Below, one piece after another: positions 19,515 to 32,806 of a stretch of DNA of 64,000 bases. Location of the stretch: assembly GCA_012797975.1 (NCBI GenBank), contig JAAZOD010000029.1, forward strand, positions 1 to 64,000, given 5' to 3'. A program made the position numbers and the translations under genes. Every line of letters starts with the position of its first letter. Position 1 is the first letter of the stretch. Below the pieces are notes generated by a model. It searched no databases. It was not told where the DNA came from and worked only from the letters and a program-made list of their open reading frames with translations. Origin of the DNA: Pelolinea sp. (GTDB lineage Bacteria; Chloroflexota; Anaerolineae; Anaerolineales; Anaerolineaceae).

Positions 19515-19550
19515 ACAGGAGCTCGTCAAAACGAGCTCCTGTTTTTATTT
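19515..19550. terminator. Bidirectional terminator between the aldo/keto reductase and pheT
   Basis: A perfect 12-bp stem (19515-19526 with 19531-19542) and 4-base loop are followed by TTTTATTTTTT on the plus strand. It overlaps the end of pheT on the other strand. Confidence 0.9.
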
Positions 19551-22079
19551 TTTACGCACAGTTGCGTGGATCTGATCTTCCAGCGCTTTGATGATCCTGT
19601 CTCTGGTTTTTTCAACGGCCTTGTCGGTCAGGGTCTTGTCAAAGGATTGGAAGGTGAGGTTATATGCCAGACTTTTATTTCCGCTGCCGATCTGTTCACC
19701 TTTGAACACATCAAACAGGGTGATGTCAGTCAACAATGCCCCGCCAGCGCTGCGGATGACAGTCTCGACCTCCCGCGAAGGCATATCCTCGGGAACGATC
19801 ATGGCGAGATCTTCCAAAACCGGAGGATACGCGGAAACCGGTTCGCTGCGGAAGACAGCGGGCAGAGATTTCAACAGCAGTTCCATATTGATATCTGCGA
19901 TCAAAACCGGGTTTTCAAGGAATGCGTATTTCTCCGCCACGGCAGGGTGAACCTCGCCCAAAATTCCGAACTCGATTTCATCGCAACGCATTGAGGAACA
20001 TTTACCGGGGTGAAATAGGAAGTGTTCAACTGGAGCAAAAACCGCGTTTTCAACATGCAGTGCATCCAGCAGCACTTCCATGTATCCCTTCAGGTCAAAG
20101 AAATCCAGACCACGATTTTTTTTCTGATCCCAATGTTTCTTTTCATGAAGCCCGGCCAGCCCGATGCAGAGATGGTATTCTTCCCTGGGTAGGGCATCGT
20201 TCTTTTCGGGCAGAAATACCGGTCCGACCTCGAAGAAACCCAACCGCTCCGCGTGGCGAATGTTTTTTTCCAAATTGGCTAACATCGGAGGGATTAATGT
20301 GGTGCGCAGCACGCGTTTATCCTGCGAAATGGGGTTGAGCAGTTCCACATATTCTCTGGCCGCTTTCGCCGATTGTTCTGGGAACATGCGCGCTTCTTCT
20401 TCGGGAGAGGTAAGGCGGTAATTGATGGTTTCCTGAAGTCCAACGCTTACTAAAACATTCTTGACCAGACGCTCGAAGTCATCCTGTTGATTGGCTCGTT
20501 GTGGCGGCAACTCATCGGCAATGCGGCTGGAAGGGATGCGATCGTAACCATACAGACGGGTGATTTCTTCCATCAGGTCCGCTTTTCCAATGATCCCTTC
20601 TCCGATATCCATGCGGTGGGGAGGGCAGTGCACGGTCACATGAGCGTTCTCAATGTGGCATTTGAATTCCAGCCGTGTCAGCAGATCGGCAACTTCTTGC
20701 AGGGTTAAGGAAATGCCGATCAGGTGCTTGATCTCTTCAGGGGCAATTTCAATGAGCGGGTCAACATGCGGTTTGGGATAGGCATCCACCAATCCCATGG
20801 CGATCTGCCCGCCGCTCCATTCCGCAATTCGACTCAGACATAACTCAACCCCCAGCTTGGCGAGGGCTGGATGGATATTGCGCGAGAAGCGGTAACCGGC
20901 TTCGCTCTGCAATTTCTGTGCGCTGACCGTGCGCCGGGTATGGATGAAGTTCCAGCTAGCACCCTCCAGCAGGATGGTGCGGGTGGAATCGGTGATCTCG
21001 CTTTCAAGCCCGCCCATCACTCCAGCTAGCGCGAGCGGTCCTGCCGTATCGGTGACCAGGATAGTGAAATCATCCAACGTGCGCTCCGCTTCATCAAGCG
21101 TGGTCAGATGCTCTCCTTTTTTGGCAGCGCGGGTGATGATGGTGGGGGCTTTGCCGCCAGCGCGTTTTTTCAAAACATCGTAATCAAAGGCGTGCAGCGG
21201 TTCACCGATTTCAAGCATGACATAATTGGTGGCATCTACCGTGCTGTTGATGGGACGCATACCGGCCAAACGCAGTCTTCGCTGCACCCAGTAAGGGCTG
21301 GGCCGGGCGGTGGCATTGCGCACCATACCAAAAACGAAACGGGGGTTCAAATTGGGGTCGGTGATCTCGATCGCCACCTCTCCGCTAATTTTTGGTCCAT
21401 CTCCTTGAAGTTTGGGTTGTGGATGGCGCAGGGGTTTGTTTAATGCTGCAGCGATTTCCCGCGCTGCACCCAGCATACAGGCATCGCGCACCATATTGGG
21501 GAGAATGGATACTTCGATCACCGCATCTCCCATATAATCGACCAGCGGCATTCCAACTGGAGCATCGTCATCCAAAATGATCACGCCCTCATGTTCATCA
21601 GAGATTCCCAATTCCTTTTCGGAACAGATCATGGAGGAGGATTCGACCCCGCGGATCTTCATGCGTTTCAATGTGGTGAGTATTTTTCCGGGCTGGTGTC
21701 CATCGTAAAGCGTGGTGCCTTCCTTGGCGTAGGCAACTTTGAGGGGTTTGGCGAGCGGCCCTTTGCCTTTGTAATCAAACAGGTTGGGTGCTCCGGTGAG
21801 CACTACCTGCTCTGTCTGACCATCACTGAGTTTGCAGAGCACCAGACGGTCAGCGTTGGGATGCGGCATGACTTCGCTGACCTCGGCGACCACCACTTTC
21901 TCTTTATCCCAGGTCAGTCCGCTGTATTGATGTTCTAAATGCTCCCCTTCCGGCATTGCAAGTCCGATGAGCTGGATATTCTCCACCTCCAGGCCGATCA
22001 TGGTCATGGCGTGGGCAAGCTCTTCCAGCGAACCATCGATATCGACAAATTCTTTTAACCAAGATAATACCAGTTTCAT
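19545..22079 (-). CDS. pheT: Phenylalanyl-tRNA synthetase beta chain
   Basis: It forms the alpha2-beta2 enzyme with PheS. The 844 residues start MKLVLSWLKEFVDIDG, followed by a tRNA-binding OB domain (about 45-165), the B3/B4 editing domain that hydrolyses Tyr-tRNA, the B5 domain, the catalytic-like core, and a C-terminal ferredoxin-fold anticodon-binding domain (PPVLEDLAMIVPEDMPSREV). The length is standard. It follows pheS after 13 bp and is controlled by the T-box leader upstream of pheS. Confidence 0.97.
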   Translation of the reverse strand: MKLVLSWLKEFVDIDGSLEELAHAMTMIGLEVENIQLIGLAMPEGEHLEHQYSGLTWDKEKVVVAEVSEVMPHPNADRLVLCKLSDGQTEQVVLTGAPNLFDYKGKGPLAKPLKVAYAKEGTTLYDGHQPGKILTTLKRMKIRGVESSSMICSEKELGISDEHEGVIILDDDAPVGMPLVDYMGDAVIEVSILPNMVRDACMLGAAREIAAALNKPLRHPQPKLQGDGPKISGEVAIEITDPNLNPRFVFGMVRNATARPSPYWVQRRLRLAGMRPINSTVDATNYVMLEIGEPLHAFDYDVLKKRAGGKAPTIITRAAKKGEHLTTLDEAERTLDDFTILVTDTAGPLALAGVMGGLESEITDSTRTILLEGASWNFIHTRRTVSAQKLQSEAGYRFSRNIHPALAKLGVELCLSRIAEWSGGQIAMGLVDAYPKPHVDPLIEIAPEEIKHLIGISLTLQEVADLLTRLEFKCHIENAHVTVHCPPHRMDIGEGIIGKADLMEEITRLYGYDRIPSSRIADELPPQRANQQDDFERLVKNVLVSVGLQETINYRLTSPEEEARMFPEQSAKAAREYVELLNPISQDKRVLRTTLIPPMLANLEKNIRHAERLGFFEVGPVFLPEKNDALPREEYHLCIGLAGLHEKKHWDQKKNRGLDFFDLKGYMEVLLDALHVENAVFAPVEHFLFHPGKCSSMRCDEIEFGILGEVHPAVAEKYAFLENPVLIADINMELLLKSLPAVFRSEPVSAYPPVLEDLAMIVPEDMPSREVETVIRSAGGALLTDITLFDVFKGEQIGSGNKSLAYNLTFQSFDKTLTDKAVEKTRDRIIKALEDQIHATVRKK

Positions 22080-22092
22080 TTTTCTATCCTTT

Positions 22093-23136
22093 TTAGAACT
22101 GTTTCAAGAAGCGAATGTCATTTGCCCAGAAATTACGAATGTCATCCACGCCATGACGCAGCATGGAAATACGCTCCGTTCCAAGGCCGGCCGCAAAGCC
22201 GGAGAATTTTTCTGGATCATAACCGCCATTTTTCAAGACTGTCGGATGCACCATGCCACAACCCAGGATCTCAAGCCAGCCAGTCCCCGAACAAACCCCG
22301 CATCCTTTTCCATTGCAGGAGATGCACTTCATGTCCATTTCGGCACTGGGTTCGGTGAAGGGGAAGTAGGATGGGCGCAGCCGTGTTTCCACACCGCTAC
22401 CGAACATGCGCCTGATGAATTCTTCCAATGTCCCGCGCAGATCGCCAAAGGTGATATTTCTGCCAACTGCCAGCAGTTCGATCTGGTTGAACTGGATCTC
22501 ATGGCTGGCGTCCATTTGCTCATAGCGGTAGACCATGCCGGGCAAGACAATGCGCACCGGGTCCGGCGCATATTCATGCATGGCATGGATCTGCCCTGGG
22601 GAGGTATGGGTACGCAGAATGACCCCTTCCTTTTTCGTATAAAAGGTGTCCCAAAGATCACGGGCTGGGTGATAGGCCGGGATATTGAGCAGCTCGAAGT
22701 TGTACTCATCCGATTCCACTTCTCGTGAACGGTATACCTGAAAACCCATTTCTGCGAGAATGCGGTAGATCTCTTGCAGGGTTTGGGTGGCGATGTGCAA
22801 TCTGCCGCGTTCGGGTTGGCGGCCGGGCAGGGTAACATCCAATTTTTGTTGCTTGATGTTGTTTGCCAGAGCGGCCTGCTGAATGCGTTCATGCGTCAAT
22901 TCCAAGCGCTTTTCAAGTTCTGTTTTTACCTGATTTGCTTTTTGGCCCAACACAGGTCGCAGAGCGGTTTCCATGGAAGGAATTTCTTTGAAAACCTGCA
23001 TGACCTCGGAAGAACGGCCTAGATAGGTGAATTTCCAACGCTCCAGATCATCTGCACTGTTCACAGAGTGCAGTGCATCTTGAGCTTTTTGTTGAATTTG
23101 TTGCAGTACAGCAATTAAATCCTTTTTTTCTTCCAT
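22093..23136 (-). CDS. pheS: Phenylalanyl-tRNA synthetase alpha chain
   Basis: This is the catalytic subunit that activates phenylalanine. The 347 residues have an N-terminal coiled coil that binds tRNA (to about 95), class II motif 2 (ILRTHTSPGQIHAM, VYRYEQMDASHEIQFNQIE) and motif 3 (FAAGLGTERISMLRHGVDDI). A Cys-rich insert, CISCNGKGCGVCSG, lies before the WLEILGCGMVHP segment and may bind zinc. I start at ATG 23136, which has GGAG at good spacing. An upstream in-frame GTG overlaps that site. It is the first gene of the T-box operon. Confidence 0.97.
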   Translation of the reverse strand: MEEKKDLIAVLQQIQQKAQDALHSVNSADDLERWKFTYLGRSSEVMQVFKEIPSMETALRPVLGQKANQVKTELEKRLELTHERIQQAALANNIKQQKLDVTLPGRQPERGRLHIATQTLQEIYRILAEMGFQVYRSREVESDEYNFELLNIPAYHPARDLWDTFYTKKEGVILRTHTSPGQIHAMHEYAPDPVRIVLPGMVYRYEQMDASHEIQFNQIELLAVGRNITFGDLRGTLEEFIRRMFGSGVETRLRPSYFPFTEPSAEMDMKCISCNGKGCGVCSGTGWLEILGCGMVHPTVLKNGGYDPEKFSGFAAGLGTERISMLRHGVDDIRNFWANDIRFLKQF

Positions 23137-23149
23137 AATCACTCCATCT

Positions 23150-26006: not shown

Positions 26007-26777
26007 ATGCATTTTCTAGTAACCAACGATGATGGCGTGACAGCCCCTGGTCTGCTGGCACTCACCCAGGAAATCCGCAAGCTCGGAAAAGTAACCGTTG
26101 TGGCACCCGATAAGAATTGGTCGGCGTCTGGGCATGTGAAAACCATGAATCGCCCTTTGCGGGTAAAAGAAGTGCTGCTGGAGGATGGCAGCCGGGCATT
26201 CGCATCGGATGGGGCACCTTCCGACTGCGTGGCTCTGCCTCTATTGGGACTGTTGGGAGAGAAGGTTGATTTTGTGGTATCCGGGATCAATCCGAATGCC
26301 AACCTGGGTCATGATGTCACCTATTCCGGCACGGTGACCGCGGCCATGGAGGGTACCATCAGCAATATCCCCAGCATTGCCATTTCATTGGATGCTCCCG
26401 AATATCATAATGGCCCATTGGATTATCGTGCAGCCGCACAGGTGGCACGTGTGGTGGCGGAAAAAGTGATCGAAAATAGAATGCCGAGCAATGTACTGCT
26501 CAACGTTAATGTGCCATATTTACCTTTTGAGGAAATCAAAGGTTTTCGTGTCACCCGCCAGGGATTGCGTGTGTATCGCGATGAATTGGTGCGCAGGGAA
26601 GACCCTCGTGGACATCCCTACTACTGGATCGGGGGGGATGCACCACTGGGCGTACCGGAAGAGGGCACGGACGTTGGCGCGCTCAGTTCGGGCTTTGTTT
26701 CTATAACCCCCATTTCGATGGATCTTACGGCGTACGATTGTCTGAAACATTTCGAAAGCTGGAATATCGGGAAATAA
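26007..26777 (+). CDS. surE: 5'/3'-nucleotidase SurE
   Basis: This is a metal-dependent nucleoside monophosphate phosphatase of the stationary-phase survival family. The 256 residues start MHFLVTNDDGVTAPG with the catalytic Asp pair, followed by VVAPDKNWSASGH and VVSGINPNANLGHDVTYSGTV. Length and motifs are complete. I use ATG 26007, and a TTG six codons upstream is in frame but not needed. A TATAAT hexamer lies at 25973-25978. The CAP-LysM gene follows after 17 bp. Confidence 0.95.
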   Translation: MHFLVTNDDGVTAPGLLALTQEIRKLGKVTVVAPDKNWSASGHVKTMNRPLRVKEVLLEDGSRAFASDGAPSDCVALPLLGLLGEKVDFVVSGINPNANLGHDVTYSGTVTAAMEGTISNIPSIAISLDAPEYHNGPLDYRAAAQVARVVAEKVIENRMPSNVLLNVNVPYLPFEEIKGFRVTRQGLRVYRDELVRREDPRGHPYYWIGGDAPLGVPEEGTDVGALSSGFVSITPISMDLTAYDCLKHFESWNIGK

Positions 26778-26794
26778 TACTTCACCGGGACAAA

Positions 26795-27766
26795 ATGAAA
26801 AGAAAATGGGTTGCACTCAGTATCGTGATATTGCTCGGCTGTTGCGCAATGCCCAAACCTGTTCAAGCAGCACCTCAGCGGGCGCCGACGGCGTATGAAC
26901 TGATCGATGCGGTCAATGCTTTTCGAATATCCAAGGGATTGGCTCCTTATGCTATAGATCCCATTCTCATGATCGCGGCCCAAACCCATGCCGAATATTT
27001 GGCATCACAGACCGGCCAGTATTCCGGGCATGTTGGCGAGGGAGGAACCGATGCGGACGCGCGTGCTGCTGCGCTCGGGTATCCACAGGTGCCCGGACTG
27101 GACATCAACGAAAACTGGGCCAGTTTGCCCGCTTCAGAGGACCTGGATACTCTACTATTCACTGTGTGGGGGGATGACCAACACACGCACACCATGTTAC
27201 ATCAAATGGGACAGCATGTGGGTGCGGGAGTGGCGGTTTCTGGGGACAATGTGATTTATGTGCTGGATGTGGCTGCCTTTTGGGGTGATGCCGGGCTAAC
27301 CCAACAACCCACCTCCGATGCCTACCCGGGTCTTACCAGCGGGGTTTCTGTTTCACAGTACATGGCACCTGTGGAGGCAGCGGAACCCGATGCGGCTGGC
27401 AAGGTCATTCATCAAGTCTTGCAGGGCCAAACGTTATGGAGCATAGCTACAGCCTATGGGGTGAAAATCGACCAGATCCGCCAGTTGAACGGGTTGACCT
27501 CGGAAAGCATGATCTATACAGGGCAGAAATTGCTGATCAAAATTATCCCCACCCCTTCGCAGGTGCCTACCACGACGGTTGGGATCTTTCCTGTCTCCAG
27601 CAGCGCTTCACCGCCAGCACAAACCATAACCATTCCCGCTGTGCCAACGTCTCAACAGGTCAAGGGAGGACAACCATCGATCGACGATCAATGGTTGATC
27701 ATTGCGATATTGGCGGTGGCGATTTTGGGTTTCATCCTGATCTTTTTAGGACAGCGTTCTTCATGA
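26795..27766 (+). CDS. CAP-domain (SCP/PR-1) protein with LysM and membrane anchor
   Basis: This is a secreted surface protein of 323 residues. It has a signal sequence (MKRKWVALSIVILLGCCAM, where LLGC could also serve as a lipobox), then a CAP domain (about 30-175). Putative site residues are His in SGHVGEGG, Glu in NENWA and His in HTHTMLHQMG. A LysM domain (about 206-250, HQVLQGQTLWSIATAYGV), a Ser/Thr/Pro-rich linker and a C-terminal transmembrane helix (IIAILAVAILGFILIFLG) follow. CAP proteins often bind lipids or act as peptidases, and here the function is unknown. It is followed by a paralogue. Confidence 0.88.
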   Translation: MKRKWVALSIVILLGCCAMPKPVQAAPQRAPTAYELIDAVNAFRISKGLAPYAIDPILMIAAQTHAEYLASQTGQYSGHVGEGGTDADARAAALGYPQVPGLDINENWASLPASEDLDTLLFTVWGDDQHTHTMLHQMGQHVGAGVAVSGDNVIYVLDVAAFWGDAGLTQQPTSDAYPGLTSGVSVSQYMAPVEAAEPDAAGKVIHQVLQGQTLWSIATAYGVKIDQIRQLNGLTSESMIYTGQKLLIKIIPTPSQVPTTTVGIFPVSSSASPPAQTITIPAVPTSQQVKGGQPSIDDQWLIIAILAVAILGFILIFLGQRSS

Positions 27767-27778
27767 AAAGAGGAAGAA

Positions 27779-28759
27779 ATGTTGTGTATAATGCCACATA
27801 TGAAGAAAATTCGGATCATCCTTGCTCTGATCGCATGGAGCTGTTTTCTCATCCCTCATACTGCAACCAAAGCAAATGCAAGCAGTGCCTACGATCTGAT
27901 CGTGGCGGTGAACTCATTTCGCTATGAGAATGGATTGAAGGAGCTGCCCACCAATGTCTATTTGATGGCGGCTGCGCAAAATCAAGCAACTTATTTGGCA
28001 AGTACCTATGGAGCAACTCCACCCGGCGAATCGGAAGGGCATCTCGGTGAAGGGGGCAGCGATGCCACCGATCGTGCGGTTCAGGTTGGATATGTGGTGA
28101 TCACTGGTGTGCAGATCCGCGAGAACTGGGCAGGGGTGGATGCCAGCACCGCGCTGGATGCTCTCCTGAAAAGCACCTGGGGCGATGCGGATAATACCGG
28201 CCTAATGTTAAATGAATATGCCACGCAGATCGGGGCGGGGGTGGCCCTGATTGATAACATGGTCTATTATGTGCTGAATATCGCGGTGGATTATTCGGTT
28301 TCACCAACCAGCTCGACGGTAACGGTGAAAACCACGGAAACACCCGGCGTGGTGCCGGTGGCGGTTTCAACACCCAACGCAGATGGGTCCATCATTCACA
28401 TTGTAGAAAAAGGGCAAGCGCTTTGGAGCATTGCCATCACGTACGGCGTAACCGTTGATCAAATACGAATCTTGAATAACTTATCGGCGAACGCTGCCAT
28501 TTATGAAGGGGATCACTTGATTATTCGGCCTGCCTACACTGCCACACCCACCCCAATTCCCACCAATACGCCCATGCCTCCTACACGCACTCCCATTCCT
28601 CCCCAAACTCCGCAGGCGTTGAAAACACAAAGCAATGGATCTTTACTGGATACCGTGAATGGTTCTGGAGGAAGAGAGATCCTGGGCATTGCTTTGATGG
28701 TGATCTGCGGGGCTTGCCTGGCCTATTTGATCTATACTATGTTACGCAAGAAAGGGTAA
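27779..28759 (+). CDS. CAP-domain/LysM paralogue, one CAP histidine missing
   Basis: This second copy of the same architecture has a signal peptide (from MKKIRIILALIAW), a CAP domain with GHLGEGGSD and RENWAG, LysM (HIVEKGQALWSIAITYGV), a Pro/Thr-rich linker and a C-terminal membrane helix (GIALMVICGACLAYLIY). In the segment corresponding to HTHTMLH of the first copy it reads ADNTGLMLN, so the second CAP His is lost. ATG 27779 has a good AGAGGA site. ATG 27800 is an alternative with TATAAT ending 7 bp before it. It ends at a strong hairpin shared with cysE. Confidence 0.85.
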   Translation: MLCIMPHMKKIRIILALIAWSCFLIPHTATKANASSAYDLIVAVNSFRYENGLKELPTNVYLMAAAQNQATYLASTYGATPPGESEGHLGEGGSDATDRAVQVGYVVITGVQIRENWAGVDASTALDALLKSTWGDADNTGLMLNEYATQIGAGVALIDNMVYYVLNIAVDYSVSPTSSTVTVKTTETPGVVPVAVSTPNADGSIIHIVEKGQALWSIAITYGVTVDQIRILNNLSANAAIYEGDHLIIRPAYTATPTPIPTNTPMPPTRTPIPPQTPQALKTQSNGSLLDTVNGSGGREILGIALMVICGACLAYLIYTMLRKKG

Positions 28760-30360: not shown

Positions 30361-30381
30361 GATTTCTCCATATCTGTATTT

Positions 30382-30447
30382 AAAAGAAAAAGCCATCGAT
30401 CGTCGACCAAAAAGATACGGGGCTCACACCGCTGCGACCGGATGGCT
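30382..30447 (-). terminator. Terminator of the cysK leader
   Basis: Seven perfect pairs (30391-30397 with 30441-30447) are extended by about four more pairs after a small bulge, with a large loop and TTTTTCTTTT following. This is the regulated terminator of the attenuator. Confidence 0.65.
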
Positions 30448-30476
30448 GATTTTGAATCATATGGCGCAGGGCAAGT

Positions 30477-30518
30477 CTACGTTGAGCCCCGCGGATTACA
30501 CAAGCAATAGGTAGTCAT
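30477..30518 (-). CDS. Cysteine leader peptide, 13 aa
   Basis: The frame ATG to TAG encodes MTTYCLCNPRGST. Codons 5 and 7 are Cys (TGC, TGT). Codons 10-12 (CGG GGC TCA) are exactly the 5' arm of the antiterminator, and the stop codon lies 3 nt further on. That register is what a translation-coupled attenuator requires. There is no strong Shine-Dalgarno site before the ATG, which is the main weakness. Confidence 0.65.
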   Translation of the reverse strand: MTTYCLCNPRGST

Positions 30519-30552
30519 AGTATTTTCAATTTCTATAAAGTTAATCATAAAA

Positions 30553-30581
30553 ATAGTATTCTGATTTTAAGGTCTTGTCAA
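30553..30581 (-). promoter_or_regulatory. cysK-cysE promoter
   Basis: TTGACA (30576-30581), a 17-bp spacer and TACTAT (30553-30558) on the minus strand. Start predicted near 30546, giving the long leader. Confidence 0.85.
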
Positions 30582-30649: not shown

Positions 30650-31438
30650 ATGCGCAATCGTATTTTCTGGGGTCTTGTCCTTATTCTCATCGGTTTGATC
30701 TTTTTGCTCTCTTATCAATTCGGATTTTCAGCGTGGAATCTGATCTGGCCATTCACCCTGATTGTTTTTGGCTGCTGGGTACTGTTGATCCCGGTGCTCT
30801 CAAAAGGCGCCGAGGTCGTTACCGAAGAGATTGATATCCCTTTGGAAGGCGCCAAACAGGCAACCATCAAGATGGAACATGGAGCCGGAACGATCCATCT
30901 CATCGCTGCGGACCTTCCTTCCACGTTGCTGAAAGGCAGTTTTGTCGGGGGAGTGCGTTCGAAGGTTGCCACGGTTGAGGAGAAATGCCACATCAAACTG
31001 GAAAGCAAGGTAGAATTTATTAACTTTCTGCCGCGTTTTCAAAAAGAACAAAAATTGAAATGGGACCTTTCCGTAAACCGTACGATCCCTTTAAAAATGA
31101 AGATGGAAACGGGAGCAAGCGATAACCATTTGGATTTGCGTGGGTCACAGTTGAAAGAGCTGCATCTTGAAACAGGTGCCTCCTCTACCGAGATTTATTT
31201 ACCGGAAAAAGCCGGAGAAACAAAGGTTCACATTGAGTCCGGTGCTTCATCCATCCGCGTCCATGTTCCTGAAAAAGTTGCAGCAAGAATTAAAGTAGGA
31301 GGGTTGGTCGGAAAGAACATTAACACGAATCGATTCAAAAAAGATGGCGATAACTACCAGTCTGCAGGATATGCCGAAGCGGCAAACCGCGCGGATATTG
31401 AGATCGATTCGGGAGTTGGTTCGATTGAAATTCAATAG
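30650..31438 (+). CDS. LiaF/toastrack-like membrane protein
   Basis: This is a 262-residue envelope protein. It has two N-terminal membrane helices (MRNRIFWGLVLILIGLIFLL and about 25-50), then a beta-rich domain of repeating strands (METGASDNHLDLRGSQLKEL, LETGASSTEIYLPEKAGETK, IESGASSIRVHVPEKVAARI) typical of toastrack domains found in LiaF-type cell-wall stress proteins. I start at ATG 30650 (GGAGG upstream). The longer frame lacks a ribosome-binding site. It is co-transcribed with a PspC gene, and in known systems such pairs sense or damp membrane stress. Confidence 0.85.
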   Translation: MRNRIFWGLVLILIGLIFLLSYQFGFSAWNLIWPFTLIVFGCWVLLIPVLSKGAEVVTEEIDIPLEGAKQATIKMEHGAGTIHLIAADLPSTLLKGSFVGGVRSKVATVEEKCHIKLESKVEFINFLPRFQKEQKLKWDLSVNRTIPLKMKMETGASDNHLDLRGSQLKELHLETGASSTEIYLPEKAGETKVHIESGASSIRVHVPEKVAARIKVGGLVGKNINTNRFKKDGDNYQSAGYAEAANRADIEIDSGVGSIEIQ

Positions 31439-31461
31439 CTCAGAAATATCTGGAGGTAACC

Positions 31462-31908
31462 ATGAAAGAAAGATTGTATCGCAGTTCACAGAACAAGATC
31501 ATCGGGGGAGTTTGCGGTGGTTTGGCTGAATATTTCCAAATCAATCCCATTTTTGTACGAATTTTCATGATCTTGTGGGTTATTGTTGGAGAATGGGGAA
31601 TATTTGTGTATTTTCTGCTCTGGTTGATCATTCCACCCCAGCAATATGAAGGAGGTGGATTCCAGCTCAACGATCTGGGCGCCCGTTTTCGCTTGGTCGG
31701 GGATGATTTGCGCGATCTTTTCCAGAATCCTTCTGCACAATTGCTTACCTATGGCGGTATTGCATTGATTGGGGTTGGCGCATCAACCCTGGCAAAAGCC
31801 CTGGGTTGGGATTGGGGAAATTACTGGAATTCGACATTGGTTTGGGCGTGTCTGTTGATCGTTGGCGGTATCTTTGTACTCGTTAAAACATACACGAAGA
31901 AGAAATAA
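31462..31908 (+). CDS. PspC-domain membrane protein
   Basis: The 148-residue protein begins with a full PspC domain (MKERLYRSSQNKIIGGVCGG, LAEYFQINPIFVRIFMILW), followed by a membrane helix ending LLWLIIPPQ, a short amphipathic middle and two further hydrophobic helices near the C-terminus. PspC proteins detect or regulate membrane stress. GGAGG precedes the ATG. It lies 23 bp after the LiaF-like gene under the same ECF-type promoter. Confidence 0.93.
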   Translation: MKERLYRSSQNKIIGGVCGGLAEYFQINPIFVRIFMILWVIVGEWGIFVYFLLWLIIPPQQYEGGGFQLNDLGARFRLVGDDLRDLFQNPSAQLLTYGGIALIGVGASTLAKALGWDWGNYWNSTLVWACLLIVGGIFVLVKTYTKKK

Positions 31909-32017
31909 AAAAGAAGACCTTCCCAACCGATTGAGGGGGGCAACCGGCTGGAAAGGCAACCTCATAATAACATGATACTTTCTACCGTGCAAGCATTCTG
32001 AAAAATTTTAAAAAACG

Positions 32018-32042
32018 GGAACTTTTTTCACTGGATAACGTT
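32018..32042 (+). promoter_or_regulatory. Second ECF-type promoter, upstream of the SIMPL lipoprotein
   Basis: GGAAC (32018-32022), 16-bp spacer and CGTT (32039-32042), in the same register as the element at 30595. A weak sigma-70 alternative (TATAAA at 32043-32048) overlaps it. Confidence 0.55.
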
Positions 32043-32068
32043 TATAAAGTACAAATCACGGAGGTAAG

Positions 32069-32806
32069 ATGAAAAAACAATCTATTCTTGCAGGTTTGAC
32101 TGTGCTGTTAATGGTCTTCGCAACCGCTTGCAGTGGAAACCAGGCGGCAATTTCCGGTGACAATTCAACGCAAAAGAGCATCACGGTAACCGGAACCGGT
32201 GTGATAAAAGTTGTACCTGACATCGCGTATATCAATGTTGGGATTACGACCCAAGATGTGAATGTGACCGATGCGATTGCGCAAAATTCCAGTCAAGCTC
32301 AGGCGATCAAAGATGAGCTGATCGATTTTGGAATTGCTGAAGAAGATATCCAAACATCCAGCTTCAGCGTGTACCCGCAATCAAATTATGATTATCAAGG
32401 GAACATCACCAGCACCACCTTTGTGGTCAATAACAACGTTTATGTTACGGTTCGCGATCTCAGCACCATGGGCGAGCTGCTCGGAAAAGTAACATCAAGC
32501 GGCGCAAATTCGATTTATGGAATCAGCTTTGATGTGCAGAACAAAAGCGAAGCGTTGACCCAATCACGAGAATTGGCTATCGATTTTGCCCGTCAGCAGG
32601 CAGAAGAAGTGGCTGCTGCCTCTGGAGTGAAATTGGGCGAAATTCTTATGATATCGGTAAGCTCCAATGATGTCCCCTACATCGTTTCTGATTCTTATGG
32701 AATGGGTGGCGGTGGCGGATATCCGACATCAGCTACGAAGATCCCGATCTCAGCGGGCAACTATGTCATCTCTTCCAGCGTGACCATTCAATACGCACTC
32801 GATTGA
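32069..32806 (+). CDS. SIMPL-domain (DUF541) lipoprotein
   Basis: This is a surface lipoprotein of 245 residues. The signal sequence MKKQSILAGLTVLLMVFATAC has the lipobox ATAC. The SIMPL/DUF541 domain starts at KSITVTGTGVIKVVPDIAYINVG and covers the rest. Family members form beta/alpha shells at the cell surface and are linked to stress resistance, with molecular function unclear. GGAGG precedes the ATG. Its promoter resembles that of the neighbouring LiaF-like operon. Confidence 0.92.
   Translation: MKKQSILAGLTVLLMVFATACSGNQAAISGDNSTQKSITVTGTGVIKVVPDIAYINVGITTQDVNVTDAIAQNSSQAQAIKDELIDFGIAEEDIQTSSFSVYPQSNYDYQGNITSTTFVVNNNVYVTVRDLSTMGELLGKVTSSGANSIYGISFDVQNKSEALTQSRELAIDFARQQAEEVAAASGVKLGEILMISVSSNDVPYIVSDSYGMGGGGGYPTSATKIPISAGNYVISSSVTIQYALD

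Follow-up and report, generated by a model that had tools for sequence, protein, structure and literature searches.

The window analysed here, a 64,000-nucleotide stretch of contig JAAZOD010000029.1 from Pelolinea sp. (Anaerolineaceae, Chloroflexota), carries on its minus strand a gene of the cysteine synthase type followed by a gene for a serine acetyltransferase-like protein. We take these to be cysK and cysE, the first name from a PF00291 match and knowledge of the family, the second from a match to hexapeptide repeats (PF00132), the operon and, again, knowledge of the family. Ahead of them lies a short leader (Table 1), in which an earlier note, made from the letters alone and giving no strand, had seen an attenuator of the trp/his type for cysteine. 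All the elements that it named are present, on the minus strand, among them the consensus promoter (TTGACA-17-TACTAT, 30581-30553) and a 13-codon open reading frame (ORF), MTTYCLCNPRGST, with cysteine at codons 5 and 7. A further in-frame ATG lies upstream of this ORF, at 30548 and 4 nt past the -10 box, and the start of the window's ORF has no clear Shine-Dalgarno (SD) sequence.

The intergenic region that holds the leader is common to a divergent cluster of weakly LiaF-like, PspC-domain and SIMPL-domain genes, envelope-stress-like in character. Elsewhere in the window are two adjacent proteins, apparently tandem paralogues, and a pheS gene that is preceded by a T-box leader and followed by a pheT-like ORF.

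Table 1. Features of the cysK-cysE leader and of its surroundings in the window.
Feature	Position	Strand	Remarks
-35 box TTGACA	30576..30581	-	promoter scan
-10 box TACTAT	30553..30558	-	promoter scan; 17-nt spacer from -35
Leader ORF MTTYCLCNPRGST	30477..30518	-	13 codons; ATG 30518, stop TAG
Regulatory codons UGC-UUG-UGU	30498..30506	-	Cys5-Leu6-Cys7; same form in relatives
Region 1, 5' arm of outer antiterminator helix, GCGGGGCUCA	30483..30492	-	last base of codon 9 and codons 10-12
Region 2, 5' arm of inner antiterminator helix	30463..30473	-	begins 4 nt past the last base of the stop codon
Terminator 5' arm AGCCAUC-C-GGUCG	30435..30447	-	fold
Region 3, 3' arm of inner antiterminator helix	30427..30439	-	30435-30439 doubles as inner half of terminator 5' arm
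Region 3', 3' arm of outer antiterminator helix, UGAGCCCCGU	30417..30426	-	folds and alignment
Region 4, terminator 3' arm, CGAUCGAUGGCU	30391..30402	-	fold
U-tract UUUUCUUUU	30382..30390	-	directly 3' of terminator 3' arm
cysK (presumed), cysteine synthase type, PF00291	29431..30360	-	SD GGAG at 30369-30366
cysE-like serine acetyltransferase (presumed), PF00132	28790..29434	-	4-nt overlap with cysK as listed
LiaF-like, PspC-domain and SIMPL-domain genes	30650..32806	+	divergent from cysK
Two proteins with CAP and LysM domains each	26738..28759	+	adjacent
T-box leader RF00230	23169..23416	-	109.3 bits; ahead of pheS
pheS	22093..23142	-	
pheT-like ORF	19545..22079	-	844 aa; after pheS

We name the RNA segments in order, region 1 being the end of the ORF and region 2 the stretch after it, with regions 3, 3' and 4 following. 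The stem previously described as 9 bp long, between codons 10-12 of the ORF (CGGGGCUCA) and UGAGCCCCG, reaches 10 bp (30492-30483 with 30426-30417). It had been said to exclude the terminator, whose 5' arm lies in its loop; the enclosure stands, but the stem and the terminator have no bases in common. The direct competitor of the terminator is an inner helix that had gone unremarked (UGCCCUGCGCC, 30473-30463 with 30439-30427); GGUCG (30439-30435) in its 3' arm is at the same time the inner half of the terminator 5' arm. The stem first described is one half of a two-helix antiterminator.

Statistics on the window's sequence were rejected as a basis for the element, as neither promoter, terminator nor folds rise above chance. 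One promoter-like site was found in the 1-kb region against 1.3 expected, a scan of the same region for short-loop terminators gave no terminator-like site, and the window's terminator, with its long loop, has an unremarkable fold (z = -1.18; whole leader, z = -0.71). We judge the element to be real because it is conserved in relatives; the window sequence alone is not beyond chance.

A close cysK was present in 55 of 101 genomes, the window's own included, and 57 of the 60 cysK matches were read upstream (the window and 56 others), the three omitted being second copies at 46-50% identity. A Cys-x-Cys leader ORF precedes cysK in 51 of these 57 regions, and the layout of the window, UGC-NNN-UGU and then GCGGG, is common to 44 of them (the window, L001, included). 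The 13 set aside comprise six in which no clear motif was found at first reading (L021, L027, L029, L036, L050 and L056; L029 was later a weak match, at 24 bits) and seven variants that also carry UGC-NNN-UGU, namely L012, L020 and L032, with three Cys codons and other arms, and L024, L045, L035 and L040. Conservation of the Cys codons, a check proposed beforehand, is complete in the aligned set: UGC-NNN-UGU occurs in 44 of 44 leaders, with the third base of both codons fixed and with an in-frame start and stop around the triplets in every case. UGU is the minor Cys codon both in the window's long ORFs (UGC:UGU = 98:47) and in these loci (80:49). Best sites within 140 nt upstream of the Cys codons score at least 9 of 12 as promoters in 43 of the 44 leaders, the window included, and 12 of 12 in 28, in a survey that had no shuffled control and for which chance gives about 1.3 sites per kb on both strands. 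The in-frame start is accompanied by an SD-like site in 24 leaders, and in 15 of the 44 an in-frame ATG lies within 10 nt of the -10 box, a possible leaderless start.

The peptide motif C-x-C-x-x-R-G is conserved together with the codons, and a hydrophobic residue is common between the two cysteines, features that would suit an arrest peptide whose own sequence stalls the ribosome when cysteine or a thiol is sensed, and not codon hunger. We regard this as improbable, given that different residues take the middle position (Met, Leu, Ile, Val, Ala, Ser, Arg, Thr or Phe) and that the R-G part is accounted for by base pairing: six nt past UGC-NNN-UGU the Arg codon is CGG in all the leaders but L037, which deviates by one base (43 of 44), whereas Arg is most often encoded by CGC in the window. 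The synonymous invariance of both Cys codons is more than codon sensing alone requires. A structural reason for the fixed order of UGC and then UGU, sought by folds and by changes in silico in the 44 leaders, gave no clear rule: the U of UGU pairs with region 2 (probability > 0.5) in 21 of 44 complete leaders, in 20 of 44 the C of UGC has a partner upstream of the codons, but no common partner sequence was seen, and third-position changes shift the energy by less than 1 kcal/mol on average, and by more than 0.5 kcal/mol in 17 to 38 of the 44 complete leaders.

Covarying stems, the second check proposed beforehand, were assessed by a swap test, in which the arms of a helix are exchanged between species and the duplexes compared over 5000 permutations. 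For the 44 leaders the exchange made the duplexes poorer, with z of -6.6 for 1:3', -5.1 for 1:2, -8.5 for 2:3 and -17.6 for 3:4, and none of the 5000 permutations was as good for any of these four; the controls 1:4 and 2:4 gave 0.1 and -0.2, and 3':4, intended as a further control, gave a weak signal (-2.5). With one leader per genus (30 leaders) the four values, in the same order, were -5.8, -4.0, -6.2 and -15.0 (1:4, 0.2; 2:4, -1.2). At 78 further loci, found by a covariance model that contains helix 1:3' and none of the other helices, they were -15.5, -11.3, -11.9 and -15.4 (1:4, 1.9; 2:4, 0.9). These 78 are what remains of 87 matches after the removal of seven already among the 44, one place fetched twice and one weak second match in L194.

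Pair counts for the outer helix were taken from alignment A1, which, like the covariance model R1 used below, carries L026 anchored one base short. Pairing holds in 87.6% of its cells, where slid versions reach 39-51%, and there are 18 two-sided changes where shuffles average 7.0, with 1 of 500 shuffles as high. Less weight attaches to the number of pairs with a two-sided change (4; reached in 50 of 500 shuffles) and to that of pair types (14; 28 of 500); in total, three of the five measures lie clearly above the shuffles. Its last two pairs are unpaired in 14 and 16 of the 44 leaders. Region 1 co-varies with region 3', as in GCGGAGAUA/UAUCUCCGC and GCGGGAUGA/UCAUCCCGC. Both the swap tests and these pair counts support the stems, and a putative antiterminator and terminator, mutually exclusive with one another, are on this comparative evidence kept by covariation.

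A U-tract directly follows the 3:4 stem in 40 of 44 leaders, the window included, against 8 of 44 when region 4 is shuffled, and in 60 of the 78 further loci (28 with two) against 12 of 78, the shuffled controls being one mononucleotide shuffle per locus with a region end slightly different from that of the 44-leader count. Two nested U-tracts are present in 24 of the 44; in L010, L015 and L026, for example, an outer stem, with a second U-tract after it, encloses an inner stem and its U-tract. By the rule used here a 3:4 terminator is missing from four of the 44 leaders (L022, L031, L046 and L047). Two of these belong to the genus g12 (L022 and L031), where region 3 pairs with the cysK SD sequence and no 3:4 U-tract was found, and a shift from transcriptional to translational control is possible there, to judge from the folds. 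Were such translational attenuation general, the leader would mainly hide or free the cysK SD sequence and would not act by ending transcription. The g12 pairing is in its favour; against it, the U-tracts seen in 40 of 44 leaders, the window's among them, lie far above the shuffled controls, and even in L031 the folds keep the SD sequence paired when the ribosome stands at the Cys codon, which leaves no clear switch, and we consider it quite unlikely. A different layout is seen in family f2 (L012, L020 and L032), whose leader ORF has three Cys codons (CMCICLGQG); the folds of two of the three (L012 and L020) show a single long stem that joins the ORF to CCGUCUCCUGG, which shares bases with the 5' arm of a terminator-like hairpin ahead of a T-run; the layout may be a simpler two-state form of the switch.

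The distribution of the element was examined with R1, which models its core and was searched with no gene information. R1 gives a single match in the window's genome; within the class Anaerolineae it matches 81 of 396 genomes (E <= 0.01), and in a phylum-wide draw 35 of 400 (E <= 0.001), all 35 of them in Anaerolineae, the share of the 400 from outside the class not being given. Of 87 re-scored matches, two of them redundant, 86 have a cysteine or sulfur gene within 1.9 kb downstream, and the remaining one is cut by a contig end. The genes are of the cysK/cysM type (56), rhodanese-type sulfurtransferases (12), nitrite/sulfite reductases (8), DUF4395 proteins (4), O-acetylhomoserine sulfhydrylases (4), a YeiH-like protein (1) and a PAPS reductase (1), scored against nine representatives chosen from these same loci; an interposed gene of another family would not show. 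In a count independent of this one, which takes in loci found with a DNA pattern, 129 loci have an ORF that begins within 800 nt of the motif, and at 120 of them the longest such ORF belongs to the sulfur clusters; at one DNA-pattern locus, L137, a CysE-like gene comes first. As the R1 search is blind to genes, the association with sulfur genes is separate evidence for a function that concerns cysteine. The codons in the matches are UGC-UGU in 82 of 86 distinct rows and UGU-UGU in four, bases that the model itself favours. Five of 54 DNA-pattern matches fall outside the Chloroflexi (Nonomuraea, Lachnospiraceae, Leisingera, Roseobacter and Acidobacteriia); their longest downstream ORF is outside the sulfur clusters and we dismissed them as chance. 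The leader, most likely a trp-type cysteine attenuator, would thus serve a regulon.

Nascent folds were computed for all 44 leaders, ended just past region 3' and with an assumed ribosome footprint masked. With the ribosome at the first Cys codon the antiterminator is intact, with at least five pairs of 2:3 in 44 of 44 leaders and a mean of -36.6 kcal/mol; at the second codon 2:3 again has at least five pairs in 44 of 44 (mean -24.7 kcal/mol) and the outer helix is halved, to a mean of 4.1 pairs from 8.6. At the stop codon the outer helix is lost in all 44 (mean -11.1 kcal/mol), and 23 leaders, the window among them with 8.5 pairs, still hold at least five pairs of the 2:3 class. A stall is thus predicted to free the antiterminator and a ribosome at the stop to cover it, the inner helix being weakened there and not lost. 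Without a ribosome the antiterminator forms in 43 of 44 nascent folds and 1:2 rarely wins (mean 0.6 pairs), from which an untranslated leader is predicted to read through. Equilibrium folds of complete leaders, made for the 36 of 44 that have a U-tract by the rule applied there (the window is not among them), favour the terminator in every ribosome state, with a mean of 24.8 pairs of 3:4 in the free leader, 24.4 with the ribosome at the first Cys codon, 25.3 at the second and 26.7 at the stop. A purely thermodynamic switch is contradicted by this result, and the switch must therefore be kinetic, decided before region 4 is available, as in trp.

An antiterminator that forms without a ribosome, a core whose invariance exceeds the need for an amino acid and a downstream gene set that suits a sulfur ligand could be expected of a metabolite riboswitch, in which the UGC-NNN-UGU...GCGGG...CCCGC core would bind cysteine or a sulfur metabolite as an aptamer and the ORF would be incidental. 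The invariant UGC and UGU are, however, in frame with a start and a stop in 44 of 44 leaders and encode exactly the amino acid of the pathway, the codon between them and the loops are variable, and neither the window's leader nor nine relatives match Rfam at the gathering score (the window giving only unrelated sub-threshold matches), and we consider this reading to have little chance of being correct. Still less probable is direct recognition of tRNA-Cys by the UGC triplet of a T-box or a similar element. UGC does encode cysteine, and the genome does use a T-box elsewhere in the window, but RF00230 has no match at the leader even at a permissive threshold and none at the gathering score in the nine relatives, no T-box antiterminator sequence was seen by eye, and the frame of the leader ORF is kept.

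We therefore return to a ribosome-mediated transcription attenuator that senses the supply of Cys-tRNA and controls cysK-cysE, to which, from the sequence comparisons, we give a probability of roughly 0.9; the conserved Cys codons, covarying helices and sulfur regulon all support the trp/his-type reading of the earlier note. Comparison establishes the codons, helices, U-tracts, promoters and downstream sulfur genes, and from them we infer stalling, a response to cysteine and a kinetic order as follows. A constitutive promoter would start the leader and a ribosome would translate the 13-codon ORF. When Cys-tRNA is short, the ribosome would stall at UGC or UGU, leaving regions 2 and 3 free and, if at the first Cys codon, regions 1 and 3' too, and the two-helix antiterminator (1:3' enclosing 2:3) would form before region 4 is made, allowing the polymerase to read through. 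When Cys-tRNA is plentiful, the ribosome would reach the stop codon and cover region 1 and much of region 2, so that region 3 would pair with region 4 and transcription would end at the U-tract. Region 1 may pair with region 2 while region 3 is still to be made, as a pause or protector hairpin. A more speculative and rather doubtful proposal is that the fixed UGC-NNN-UGU order is itself functional, as a two-step measure of cysteine: a stall at the fast Watson-Crick codon would leave both antiterminator helices free and a stall at the slower wobble codon would block half of the outer helix, the response would be graded and not on/off, and one bacterial class would run its cysteine regulon on a single RNA device without a dedicated repressor.

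Cysteine attenuators are already known elsewhere. One of them, uORFC-8-2, is likewise predicted to be an attenuator of the ribosome-mediated kind and combines a pair of Cys codons with an intrinsic terminator; it is reported only from leaders of cysS in Rhodobacterales, and its Cys codons are in tandem, with UGC dominant and some UGU (PMC8632094). The Anaerolineae form has Cys-x-Cys, UGC followed by UGU, and several cysteine and sulfur genes, so that gene, clade and the layout of the codons all set it apart from uORFC-8-2 as described. Actinobacterial cys-operon leaders are described as carrying their Cys codons in runs close to the stop and as lacking a conserved terminator hairpin (PMC1262725), and mycobacterial poly-Cys leaderless ORFs (Canestrari 2020) are cited as translation attenuation (PMC13236596). 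Those leaders lie ahead of cys operons or cbs, and the Anaerolineae ones resemble them in carrying Cys codons within a short upstream ORF; some may also share the leaderless start of the mycobacterial ORFs (ATG within 10 nt of the -10 box in 15 of 44), but they do not have a Cys run near the stop combined with the lack of a conserved terminator hairpin. A statement from 2010 has leader-peptide systems shown, to its authors' knowledge, only in Proteobacteria and Actinobacteria before their own Firmicutes cases (PMC2965389). Among the matches listed from the openly licensed literature there was no report of a Cys leader attenuator in Chloroflexota, which to that extent does not contradict the earlier remark that the arrangement was unknown there.

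In the literature found, the earlier trp-type cysteine attenuator with a terminator was proposed for one gene in one order (cysS in Rhodobacterales); here one recognisable leader family, with near-consensus promoters, stands ahead of several kinds of cysteine and sulfur gene in a little-studied class. The element can be tested in cultured species too (Bellilinea, Longilinea and Ornatilinea) and offers natural variants: the ORF may be led by an SD sequence or possibly be leaderless, the terminator may be single or nested, and one genus is possibly under translational control. The fixed order of its codons could show in what way UGC and UGU differ as sites of stalling.

Ribosome-mediated transcription attenuators of the trp/his type are a class known from enteric bacteria. 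The leaders described here share with that class a short ORF with codons for the product of the pathway, mutually exclusive RNA regions and an intrinsic terminator, its U-tract lying before the first gene. With T-box leaders they would share the reading of tRNA charging and action on terminators, whereas in the proposed model the reader is the ribosome and not the RNA. Unlike the trp/his type, they concern cysteine, with two Cys codons fixed as UGC-NNN-UGU, they have two nested U-tracts in 24 of 44 leaders, and they add an outer antiterminator helix that uses the leader ORF's own codons.
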